Notes under the pieces: generated by a model
The model's database searches: none
What the model was told of the DNA's origin: nothing
Seen by the model: the letters and a program-made list of their open reading frames with translations, nothing else
NCBI GenBank assembly: GCA_018398765.1
Contig: JAHBMJ010004030.1
Span: forward strand, 44,066 to 74,115
Source of the DNA: Chromera velia
Lineage: Eukaryota; Sar; Chromeraceae
Direction: 5' to 3'
Length of the DNA: 30,050 nt
Shown: positions 404-29,986 of the stretch, one piece after another
Layout of the letters: every line of letters starts with the position of its first letter
Position numbering within the stretch: position 1 is the first letter of the stretch
Position numbers and translations under genes: made by a program

Positions 404-1961
404 ACGCACGCACTGCAGGCTGACCGACTGACTCCATCGTCCCCCCTCCTCGGGTCGTCCTCGTCGTCTGCCCCCGCCCCCAGACGGTCGCTGACTGCCA
501 AGACGTCCTCCATCTGGCCCCACAACTTGATGATGTTGCCGCAAATGATGTGACGGAACTGGACGCGCCGCCCGTGGTCACACCCCCCCCCCATAGAGGC
601 ATAGGCGACGTCCGGGTTGTTGCACTGTCCCTTGGTCCCCTTCATGTGCGTGCACTTGAGGAGGCCGATATCGTAGTGCTCCTTCCACTCCGCCGCCAGT
701 CTCTGCCTGTTCATCACATGAGTGTCCCCGTCGATCACCAACTTCCGGAAACTGCAAGAAGCAAAGCAGAAAGAAAGAGAGAGAGAGAGAGAGTCGAATT
801 AATTGCCTTCCCATCAGATTCCCTGCTTCTCATACTGCCAACTGCTTGAGAGAAAGCATAGGGGCAGAAGAGCATTTTTCAGTGGTTCAACTTGGAAGCG
901 GAGCACGCCTCGGAGGGACACGCAGAGGCTGCATAGAGAGCTGATTGACGTGAACCTCTAATCTCTGAGTCAATCCTTCTGTGTCTCCCTCTGTCTCTCT
1001 GTCTGTCGGTCTGTGTGCATTTTTGGTTGTCTCACCTCCCTGCTCTACGCAGACCTTCTTTCTCATATATCCTCAGTCCCCACTTACTGACTGACTGACT
1101 GCCTGAGTTCGGGCACTGTCAACGTTTTGTCCTCCAGGCCGATGTGGGGTTTGAACATCGCGTACTTGTTCGCCTGTCCATGCCGAACCTTCCGGAGGGC
1201 ACTCACACCCTGAAGGAAGGAAGGAAGGGAAGGAAGGACGGAAGGAAGGAAGGAAGATGGGAAAGGAGATAGAGGGAAGGACAGAGACGGAGGGACCAGC
1301 GGGAGGGAAACACAGGAGGACATGCTGATACATATACTGATCATTTTCTAACAGCAAGAGGGCAGTTAGGAAGAGACGCACGGTCCCCCCCACAGAGACA
1401 TCCTGGGAAAGAAGTGTGTCTGTCTGTCTGTTTCTTCTCCGTTGTCCTTTTCCCGTCATTTCCTCCGTACGCACTCAACGCCCCATCTTCCCTGCCCGTC
1501 TGTCTCTACGCACGTACGTACGTCTTTTTTGCGGATGACGAGAGTGAGCAGCGCTTTCCCTGTGTGCTCGTTGATCCTCTTGTAGAAGCCCTCGTGCATG
1601 TCCCTGTTCTCTTGCATCGCCGCCTGCATGCAGGTGAGTGGGTGCAGGAAGAAAGAAAGAGAGAGAGAGAACGAGCAATTTGGAACCGTTTGCACTCATG
1701 GGAGGCCACTTAGAAAGAAGAGATGACGACGCTCTTGCGGCTTTTGCCGTTACGACTTTCTGTGCACTCCCAAAAAGAAGAATCGGTCTGTCTGTCGACT
1801 TTTTCTCTTTCAATTTTATTCCAGCACTACCAAGCCCCCCCCCTTCCCTCACCCTCTTCTTGGAGGAATCGTAAATCGCCAGTGCCTGTTCCCAGCTGAT
1901 ACCTCGATCCAGGATCAGACGCTTGTACACACTCTCCACACCTGCACGCACAGGTAGAAAG

Positions 1962-2024
<63 letters not shown>

Positions 2025-28100: not shown

Positions 28101-28136
<36 letters not shown>

Positions 28137-29986
28137 GATTGATCTGATCGCACCGCCATGCCATGCAGCTGGAATGAAGGAAGGCTCCCTCCTCCCTTTC
28201 TTTTTCTTTCCCTTCGCTTCTCTCTCCCCCTCTCTCCCTCTCTCTATTGCTGCTGTGTGTCCTCTTTTTTGTTTGATTTTGCGTCTGGCCATCATGCATT
28301 GTCTTCCTTCCCTTCTGGTCTCTCTCTGTCTGTCTGTCTGTCACACACACGTCTGCCTGCTTGCAGGAGTTCCTTCGCTGCTGCTTCTGCTGTCCTTTGT
28401 TTGAGGGGTACGGGATGACTGAGACCATCGCATGCGGGGGGATGACCTTCTCTCTGGACCCGAACTGCGGCATCGTTGGAGGACCCGTACCCTCAGTGGA
28501 GGCAAAGGTGCTCGGAATTCCGGAAATGAACTACACGCCCCATGACAAGTCAGTCAGTCAGTCGAGCCACTTAATTCGACTCAGTTAATTGACTATGGGT
28601 GATGGATGTGTGTTCAGTTGAGTTATCTTCTTTTCAGGGTGCAGAATCGCAGCTTTCATTTCATGTCTGTTTCTCGGTCACTTCCTCCTTCATTCTTTCC
28701 TTGATGCTGCTAGCGAGCGAGCGAGAGAGGATCAAGGTTGTGAATTTGGATGTCTCTCGATTACGCATTAGATGCTTCAATTCTTCCTGCCTGCCTGCCT
28801 TTCTGCCTGCAGGGACGATGAGGGCCGACCGATGCCGAGGGGAGAGCTCTGTCTCCGGGGTCCCTCTGTGTTCTCTGGGTACTTCCAGAACGAGGAGAAG
28901 ACCAAGGAGGCTCTCGACGACGAGGGCTGGTTCCACACGGGAGATGTCGTCAAGGTGAGGTGAGGTGAGGGTACTGCATGCATGCAGAGAGAGGGGGAGG
29001 GGAGAATCGTCGTCGGCTCAGCGGTGGTCTCTTGGGGCTTCTTTGTATCTTCGCATGGTCCCTCGCTTGCCTTCCTTCCTGGTCTCTGTCATCTCATTGA
29101 GCAGCCAGAAGGCATCTAGATTGATTCATACAGAATTCACTTTCTTACAGAATTCTTTGATTGCGTGGTTGCGTCTTCGTGCGTGCGTGCGTGTGTGTGT
29201 GTGTGTGTGGTTGTGTGTGTGTGTGCAGGTGCACCCGAACGGCGCCTTCCAGATCATCGACAGGGCGAAGAACATCTTCAAGCTCGCCCACGGAGAGTAC
29301 ATCGCACCCGAGAAGATCGAGAACGTGTACGTGCAGGCCTTCAGCGTCGCACAGGCGTTTGTGTACGGCACCTCCACGGAGAGGTTCCTTGTGGCCATAG
29401 TCGTGCCGTCGGATGAGGGCGTGAAGGTTTGTCAGTCGATTAATCAGTCATAAATGCCGGGGGAAAGAAGGGTGTTGCATGCGCAACACAAAAGGCAGCT
29501 TCCAGTGTCCATCTGTAAACTGTGCCATGACAGTTGCTTCTTGTCAAATCGGATTGCGCCCTTCCCCTCTCGACCGTCCACATCTTCTTTCTCATTGGCC
29601 TGTCGGCGGATTGATGGACCAAAGGGTGAACGTGTTTCGATTCGTTGGAAACATTGTATCAAGGCATATGTCTTCGTATTGTGAATTTCTGTGTGTGTCT
29701 CCTTTTTTCCATGCAGGCTTTTGCTGACAAGACAGGCAAGTCCCGCGACATGAAGGCACTCTGCAAGGACGAGGACTTCAAGAAGGAAGTGGTGGAGGAG
29801 ATGAATGCGGCAGGGAAGGCCAACAAACTGAACGGGATGGAATTCGCCAAGGAAGTCACGCTCTGGCCCGAGCCCTTCACTGTGGAAAACGACCTTTTGA
29901 CTCCCTCCTTCAAGCTGAAGCGATTCCAGGCAAAGACCGTCTTCGAGAAGGAAATTGCGGAAATGTACGCGAAACTCAACAAGTGA
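23969..29986 (+). CDS. ACSL: Long-chain acyl-CoA synthetase (fatty acid-CoA ligase, AMP-forming), membrane-anchored, 12 exons, complete
   Basis: Exons: 23969-24152, 24451-24523, 24979-25243, 25480-25665, 26031-26234, 26654-26755, 27121-27271, 27654-27850, 28367-28548, 28813-28954, 29229-29426, 29717-29986. All junctions are GT..AG with matching phases, giving 717 residues, normal for ACSL. It activates long-chain fatty acids with ATP to acyl-AMP and then acyl-CoA. Motifs: YTSGTTGNPKG (283-293, ATP/AMP binding), YLPYAHIFERA, YGMTET (469-474), GWFHTGD (553-559), IIDRAKNIFK and LAHGEYIAPEKIE (571-593, fatty acyl-CoA synthetase signature), and LLTPSFKLKR with the expected catalytic Lys694. Residues about 5-40 are hydrophobic and probably anchor the enzyme in a membrane (ER or plastid envelope; not decidable here). 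The start codon context AGCAAGATGG is good and no other ATG fits the anchor. No catalytic residue is missing. Exon 1 to 2 joining (A|AC, phase 1) is the least homology-supported junction. Confidence 0.95.
25384..25407. repeat. Poly-C run with one unresolved base
   Basis: A run of C with a single N at 25398 in intron 3 of the acyl-CoA synthetase gene, upstream of the exon 4 acceptor. Homopolymer length is probably uncertain. Confidence 0.9.
25775..25804. repeat. (TG)n repeat
   Basis: In intron 4 of the acyl-CoA synthetase gene. Confidence 0.95.
28052..28135. repeat. (CT)n followed by (TTGA)n
   Basis: (CT)n at 28052-28090 and about eight TTGA units at 28101-28135, in intron 8 of the acyl-CoA synthetase gene. 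Confidence 0.95.
29179..29228. repeat. (GT)n repeat abutting the exon 11 acceptor
   Basis: (GCGT)n and then (GT)n end in GTGCAG|GTG, the acceptor of acyl-CoA synthetase exon 11. Confidence 0.95.

Follow-up and report, generated by a model that had tools for sequence, protein, structure and literature searches.

Why should the introns of two unrelated genes, encoded on opposite strands, open with the same four-base rhythm? The DNA in question is a 30,050-nucleotide stretch of the Chromera velia genome (contig JAHBMJ010004030.1, positions 44,066 to 74,115; called 'the window' below) that carries a long-chain acyl-CoA synthetase gene on its plus strand and a strawberry-notch (SBNO) helicase gene on its minus strand. 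In both genes, many 5ʹ splice sites (donors) are the first unit of a tandem (GTNN)n array. A first-pass annotation had reported that GT recurs every four bases into these introns. This pattern is real and extends past the window, as judged from a set of 65 introns and from genome-wide counts. The reading we favour, with a probability of about 0.58, is that four-base duplication and slippage, seeded and pinned by selected splice signals, run all through C. velia introns, with loss of the mismatch repair gene MSH3 as a hypothesised cause.

Donor arrays in introns placed by exact proteins

Introns were placed with a custom spliced aligner that charges a uniform cost for any GT and any AG, and thus has no context preference. 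Given the exact acyl-CoA synthetase protein, it returned 11/11 introns of that gene, and with five other proteins it found between 8 and 11 of these donors. Our independent set holds 65 introns from eight genes with exact proteins (including the 11 acyl-CoA synthetase introns), and four of the genes are paralogues. The intron results below come from this single genome (177.8 Mb in 4,040 contigs; according to PMC4501334 the assembly has 5,953 accession numbers) and from protein-based placement. Four of the proteins are transcript-type, namely P0243, which is labelled as an MMETSP transcript, and P0001, P0002 and P0008, whose type was judged by source and contig size; the other four come from genome annotation. 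A chimeric query of 15 exon pieces yielded four proteins, all mapping to contig C1 with fully identical aligned residues, and every aligned residue of P0241, P0242 and P0244 (C. velia CCMP2878 by source) is likewise identical on C1. Flanking residues are identical in 65/65 introns, and for none of the 65 does a second GT-AG placement yield the same protein.

In these introns GT stands at +5 in 52 cases, at +9 in 32, at +13 in 16, at +17 in 11 and at +21 in 10. Out of register it occurs once at +6, four times at +7 and once each at +8 and +10, and its frequency in intron interiors is 7.6%. Donors have one unit in 13 introns, two in 21, three in 18, four in nine, five in one, six in one and seven in two; about half of the introns thus open with at least three head-to-tail, GT-initial four-base units. 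A comparison of real with shuffled introns had been proposed earlier; over 200 Markov shuffles, GT falls at +9 in 5.5 introns on average and never in more than 12, far below the 32 observed (binomial p = 4e-19; 38-62% on bootstrapping by gene). By protein source, the counts at +9 are 15/26 for transcript-type genes and 17/39 for annotation genes.

The arrays have an exact outer edge. GT is found at exon position -4 in 0/65 cases, and the proteins fit only the first unit in 65/65 unique placements, which bears out the earlier claim that the first unit is the splice site. GT at +9 depends on GT at +5, being present in 31/52 introns with it and 1/13 without (p = 0.0012). The N positions had been described as varying between units; they do vary, but they are not free, because units 1 and 2 are identical in 19/52 introns versus 6.1 by shuffling (0/5,000 shuffles reach this value) and units 2 and 3 in 10/31 versus 3.8 (p = 0.0024). 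Identity at N positions is similar in interior GT arrays (26/89). The commonest donor hexamers are GTCAGT (17/65) and GTCGGT (8/65).

Genome-wide, the pattern MAGGTNNGT is followed by GT at +8 in 1,937 instances, at +9 in 10,784 and at +10 in 2,684, so that GT at +9 is 4.0 to 5.6 times as frequent as at its neighbours. Reversing these patterns yields 3,913, 10,025 and 4,340, respectively, and MAG plus four units occurs 3,925 times, versus 3,147 for the reversed pattern. Because reversed patterns also prefer a spacing of four, a large share of the four-base excess lacks donor specificity, and donors are part of a broader bias.

Another gene, at C1:171000-200000 on the minus strand, carries numerous duplicates of EGF-like and CDDGN-type exons, and its donors are poorer in arrays. 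These exons (C1 171-200 kb) were excluded from the 65-intron set. The gene is an outlier: among 24 of its donors read by eye, five have GT at +9, and extension to a third unit is low across the region (42/202).

Four-base tandemness throughout introns

The lag-4 signal spans introns from donor through middle to acceptor. In intron interiors, identity above expectation is 0.148 at lag 4, compared with 0.005 at lag 3, 0.015 at lag 5 and 0.075 at lag 2; the lag-4 value for exons is 0.004. Relative to a Markov null, identical adjacent four-mers are 9.05-fold as frequent in introns and 0.92-fold in exons, and they begin at 6.6% of positions in the former and 0.5% in the latter. Perfect arrays of at least three units occur in intron interiors at 3.09 per kb for period 4, and at 0.55, 0.11 and 0.33 per kb for periods 3, 5 and 6.

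Acceptors mirror the donors. TG precedes the intron end at -5 in 53 of the 65 introns, at -9 in 27 and at -13 in 14, with 1 to 12 at the other offsets from -6 to -15, and acceptors often finish as (TGNN)n-TGCAG. All 10 of the 10 dinucleotides examined are four-periodic in introns. The local four-base duplication suggested earlier fits the data, but the periodicity is confined neither to GT nor to donors. Since tandem four-base copies of every kind of motif extend through whole introns and into their acceptors, the arrays at donors form just one margin of a more general pattern.

Lag-4 identity is strongest in introns, at 0.409, and weaker in gene flanks, at 0.326 upstream and 0.357 downstream. 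GTNNGT is extended by a third unit in 82/141 cases in a stretch with two mapped genes, and near background in a C1 stretch of long open frames that we assume to be a transposable element (5/44 on one strand, 2/30 on the other) and in another stretch, of 20 kb (7/59 and 4/59).

One repeat family resembles a long terminal repeat (LTR). It is represented by C1:157670-158012 and approximately 40 copies (L036-L072) of about 340 bases, several of which form pairs about 1.55 kb apart. Most match the query copy at 87-90% identity, and indels are very rare. A diverged tandem satellite occupies C1:73880-75330.

A proposed slippage mechanism pinned by splice signals

We infer that slippage is the process behind this pattern: neighbouring units are often identical, extension depends on the preceding unit, every motif and both intron ends are involved, and paralogues with a common intron position mostly carry different arrays. 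In the proposed mechanism, splice signals held by selection (GTNNGT at the 5ʹ end and TGCAG at the 3ʹ end) would form permanent seeds beside unconstrained sequence. Slippage would copy each signal inward to give (GTNN)n or (TGNN)n, and point mutation would then blur the copies. The exon side would take no part because it is coding, and splicing would use the outermost unit. Slips may persist if MutS-beta (the MSH2-MSH3 dimer) is missing, such that four-base loops are poorly repaired. Hypothetically, the introns would then be an evolutionary counterpart of elevated microsatellite alterations at selected tetranucleotide repeats (EMAST) in MSH3-deficient human cells. If this is right, a mutational process can remodel splice signals genome-wide while function stays intact, the outer edge of each array being fixed by selection, and C. 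velia would offer a testable case of losing one mismatch repair branch over evolutionary time. For gene finders there is a caution in the fact that several in-register GT candidates follow many true donors.

A search of the genome for the MutS_V domain gave 13 matches on five contigs (C3485, C1317, C3611, C3475 and C2838; loci L076-L080). Two loci can be assigned by their best solved relatives, L077 as MSH2 (178 bits, versus 120 for MSH3) and L078 as MSH6 (159 bits, versus 109). Bacterial MutS is the best match for L076 (102 bits; MSH3 90) and for L080 (58 bits; MSH3 46). We take L076 to be MSH4-like, L079 MSH5-like (it carries DEFGKGT) and L080 an organellar MSH1-like protein, labels assigned from sequence motifs; MSH4 and MSH5 chains were absent from the match lists. 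MutS_I and MutS_III searches added no contig to the five, and MutS_I had no match on the L079 or MSH2 contigs. Thus, MSH3 is the best match for none of the five MutS-family loci in the 4,040 contigs of an assembly that may be incomplete.

Hypothetically, a missing MSH3 would have produced the four-base introns. When MSH3 is silenced in human cells, frameshifts in [AAAG]17 increase and [CA]13 is less affected (PMC3507781). MSH3 is also reported missing in Plasmodium (PMC5298969) and in dinoflagellates (PMC6680887).

Evidence that the slippage reading must accommodate

Several observations weigh against this reading. The first group concerns repair. The best match of L079 is bacterial MutS (56 bits), and its best eukaryotic match is MSH3 (49 bits, versus 43 for MSH2 and 39 for MSH6). 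From its sequence L079 is likely MSH5 rather than MSH3, yet this match and the possible incompleteness of the assembly make the absence of MSH3 provisional. Flies and worms are likewise not known to have MSH3, and a loss that sufficed by itself would be expected to leave the same pattern in other lineages without the gene.

The second group concerns period and event spectra. Other periods are also raised in introns, period 6 by 8.35-fold at 0.8% of positions. In the 40 LTR-like copies we counted 14 insertion events, one of which is of four bases and not tandem, and BLAST pairs of other, partly overlapping duplicates gave 82 short indels, 11 of four bases and one of these tandem. These spectra come from few duplicates, and they indicate that four-base duplication is not a prominent event in that DNA.

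The third group concerns the splice sites themselves, where arrays exceed what interiors predict. Third units follow in 30/48 donors versus 27/89 first-of-array GTNNGT motifs in interiors (p = 0.0005), and TG at -9 in 22/47 acceptors versus 164/1011 interior cases (p = 2e-6). Lag-4 Markov models fitted to interiors place GT at +9 in 10.5-13.5 of 65 introns, compared with the 32 observed. We also ran neutral seeded simulations at 36 settings, six of which match the interiors (lag-4 0.11-0.17 and tandem share 0.045-0.095); these six put GT at +9 in 0.20-0.41 of donors, whereas the observed value is 31/52 = 0.60. The sole setting to reach 0.60 has an interior lag-4 of 0.325 rather than the observed 0.148. 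The simulations are simple, and a slip rate raised locally is one of the things they omit, so we report this gap as a finding without taking it to prove selection.

Array length is uncorrelated with the lag-4 strength of the same intron's interior (63 introns, rho 0.04, p = 0.76), and with lags 3 and 5 rho is -0.29 (p = 0.02). Finally, across the 16 paralogue pairs with a common intron position, array lengths tend to be alike (rho 0.46, p = 0.07); at one position all three paralogues carry three to four units. A paralogue without an exact protein (L035) entered this comparison only, as part of 7/16 pairs.

A simple conditional test had given a different picture, with interior P(GT at +8 given GT and GT at +4) of 94/184 approximating the 30/48 of donors (p = 0.19). 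We rejected this test, since positions within long interior arrays push the value up; counting first units only brings it down to 27/89.

Alternative explanations

The strongest alternative is that selection keeps extra in-register GTs for splicing, through overlapping U1 registers or a donor extended to about +10, with slippage supplying the raw material. The first-pass annotation had raised selection on the GT register, which may act on the extra GTs of donors. The donor excess over interior arrays, about twofold for third units and above the neutral simulations, is what this alternative would predict, as is the resemblance in array length among paralogues. Furthermore, the excess of third units is greatest at the first step past the constrained motif, and G at +9 follows G at +5 in 47/64 donors while N positions match their neighbours in 28-33/65. 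In contrast, +9 is not enriched where GT at +5 is lacking (the 1/13 given above), precisely where compensation would be most useful, and long arrays do not go with a stronger MAG on the exon side (14/31 versus 18/34, p = 0.62). Array sequence is also seldom conserved, the first 12 intron bases being identical in 1/16 paralogue pairs with a common intron position. Taken together, we consider this alternative possible, though the odds are well against it.

The splicing machinery offers selection little help. The best U1 match in the genome (L009) begins AAACUUACCUG, lies above the Rfam cut-off and has a canonical 5ʹ end, and U6 contains the canonical ACAGAGA box. The earlier idea of buffered U1 pairing in several registers had called for alignment of the U1 5ʹ end, and its ordinary sequence counts against special U1 pairing. 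Two other loci (L010 and L011) are weaker or partial U1-like copies that may be degraded.

The donors nevertheless hold an oddity, in that C is the commonest base at +3 (C 31, G 19, A 9 and T 6 in the 65 donors, with G at +5 in 64) although U1 and U6 are canonical; elsewhere, +3 is usually a purine. A stronger form of the selection argument, somewhat more doubtful again, is that the spliceosome relies on the four-base GT register, with slippage-made second and third units kept as redundant U1 sites or as an extended donor that relaxes the purine preference at +3.

Slippage might instead be transcription-coupled or chromatin-linked and confined to introns, independently of mismatch repair genotype. 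The higher lag-4 identity of introns than of their flanks would suit this explanation, as would the low four-mer tandem share of the LTR-like copies (1.4%). These repeats may merely be too young, however, and intron age and transcription are unseparated in such comparisons, leaving this an improbable account.

Intron birth by slippage had been contemplated in the first-pass annotation, but a recent origin of the introns by insertion as GTNN arrays, or by growth from them, is very unlikely. Arrays do lie at both intron ends, but paralogues have common intron positions with mostly differing arrays, and 13/65 introns have a single GT unit. Least credible of all is composition and chance, with GTNNGT a normal donor and low-complexity, four-periodic interiors supplying the rest, which is contradicted by the Markov shuffles and by lag-4 Markov models that average at most 13.5/65.

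Relation to known repeat and splice-site systems

Tetranucleotide microsatellites and cryptically simple sequences are built of period-4 tandem copies, including imperfect units. C. velia arrays share with the former adjacent units that are copies of each other. Unlike microsatellites, these arrays have a phase fixed by the splice site, an exact outer edge and degenerate units, and period 4 is far commoner in C. velia introns than period 3, 5 or 6.

GYNNGY tandem donors are delta-4 alternative 5ʹ splice sites (PMC4267661). Our donors resemble them in the second GT four bases downstream, which the donor consensus itself entails and to which a switch would shift the frame; 52/65 introns have GT at both +1 and +5. 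In GYNNGY donors two GYs and their alternative use are central, whereas C. velia has up to seven units, no sign of alternative use in the proteins and a pattern that runs through the intron to the acceptor. EMAST (PMC3507781) would share four-base repeat instability with C. velia, where MSH3 was not found among the MutS-family loci; it is somatic, in tumours and cell lines, whereas the imprint that we propose on splice sites is genome-wide and in the germline. The alveolate Amoebophrya also has repeat structure at intron ends. Introners and non-canonical introns are described there (PMC7789003), with two strains in which most introns are non-GT-AG, part carry inverted and direct repeats, and U1 was undetected. 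Unlike these, C. velia has GT-AG introns and a canonical U1. Among the titles listed, none concerned arrays of at least three four-base units at splice sites or C. velia tetranucleotide repeats.

Genes and introns of the window

The acyl-CoA synthetase gene was mapped with P0001 (source jgi, 713 aa, contig 2,369 bases), which gives 11 GT-AG introns with one possible placement each. GT is found at +5 in 9/11 donors, at +9 in 8/11 and at +13 in 1/11. The features below all follow from this exact map.

23981..29983, plus strand: long-chain acyl-CoA synthetase gene, 12 exons and 11 introns
24153..24450, plus: intron, donor GTGAGCCGGT, no GT at +5
24524..24978, plus: intron, donor GTCG GTCG GTCC
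25244..25479, plus: intron, donor GTGG GTTG GTGC
25666..26030, plus: intron, donor GTCA GTGC GTCG; acceptor ends ...TGCCTGCTTGCCTTTCTTGCAG
26235..26653, plus: intron, donor GTAC GTGG GTCC
26756..27120, plus: intron, donor GTCA GTTG (two units); acceptor ends ...CTGCCTGCCTGCCTGCAG
27272..27653, plus: intron, donor GTGG GTGG GTTT
27851..28366, plus: intron, donor GTCA GTCG (two units); acceptor ends ...CTGCCTGCTTGCAG
28549..28812, plus: intron, donor GTCA GTCA GTCA GTCG, the plus-strand example of the first-pass annotation; acceptor ends ...TGCCTGCCTGCCTTTCTGCCTGCAG
28955..29228, plus: intron, five-base (not four-base) donor repeat GTGAG GTGAG GTGAGG at 28955-28970
29427..29716, plus: intron, donor GTTT GTCA GTCG

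The SBNO introns stand outside the 65-intron set because they were placed via distant homology, the homologues being only about 33% identical. Nine minus-strand donors, named here by exon end, had been quoted earlier. Without a splice-site model, those at 9731 and 7078 are backed by 39/39 single references, and support for the remaining seven ranges from 0 to 11/39; a 38-sequence SBNO profile at intron cost 14 recovers 3/9. We also trained a splice model on the 65 introns of other genes, with a donor matrix from -3 to +6 and an acceptor matrix of the last five bases. It recovers 8/9 of the quoted donors at intron costs 18 and 22 and 7/9 at 26, and never that at 4598. At cost 22, its 24 introns (several in weak regions) have GT at +5 in 16, +9 in 12 and +13 in 13, of which the +5 count is biased by the donor matrix and the other two are not.

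433..15120, minus strand: SBNO helicase gene, approximate limits, 24 modelled introns (cost 22); homologues P0121-P0159, PF13871 and PF13872
11386..11415, minus: acceptor array (TGCC)n ending TGCAG; 36/39 references
10960..10989, minus: acceptor array (ATGA)n ending TGCAG; 37/39 references
10293..10308, minus: donor array, four units; sequence and splice model
9711..9730, minus: donor array, five units; 39/39 references back the donor, and splice model
8265..8288, minus: donor array, six units; sequence and splice model
7736..7759, minus: donor array, six units; sequence and splice model
7054..7077, minus: donor array, six units; 39/39 references back the donor, and splice model
4574..4597, minus: GTNN array, six units, donor use unconfirmed; sequence, never recovered by the model
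3956..3971, minus: donor array, four units; sequence and splice model, dropped at intron cost 26
1506..1521, minus: donor array, four units; sequence and splice model
1080..1099, minus: donor array, five units; sequence, reference alignments and splice model

All ten sequences quoted earlier are present in the window beside their exon ends, with the correction that the array at 9731 has five units, not four. The donor at 28548 is established by an exact protein, and eight of the nine on the minus strand are recovered by the model at intron costs 18 and 22, which leaves 4598 unconfirmed. The earlier counts of 19 (+9) and 12 (+13) among 33 introns are consistent with the 11 exact and 24 modelled introns.

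The SBNO intron at 6304-7077 (minus strand) contains long CTTT-type runs that stay open as reading frames. A probable additional gene, with exons rich in lysine and glutamate, lies at 18683-20602 on the plus strand, and a tandem repeat with a 116-base offset and a long, repetitive plus-strand open frame occupies 20962-21363.

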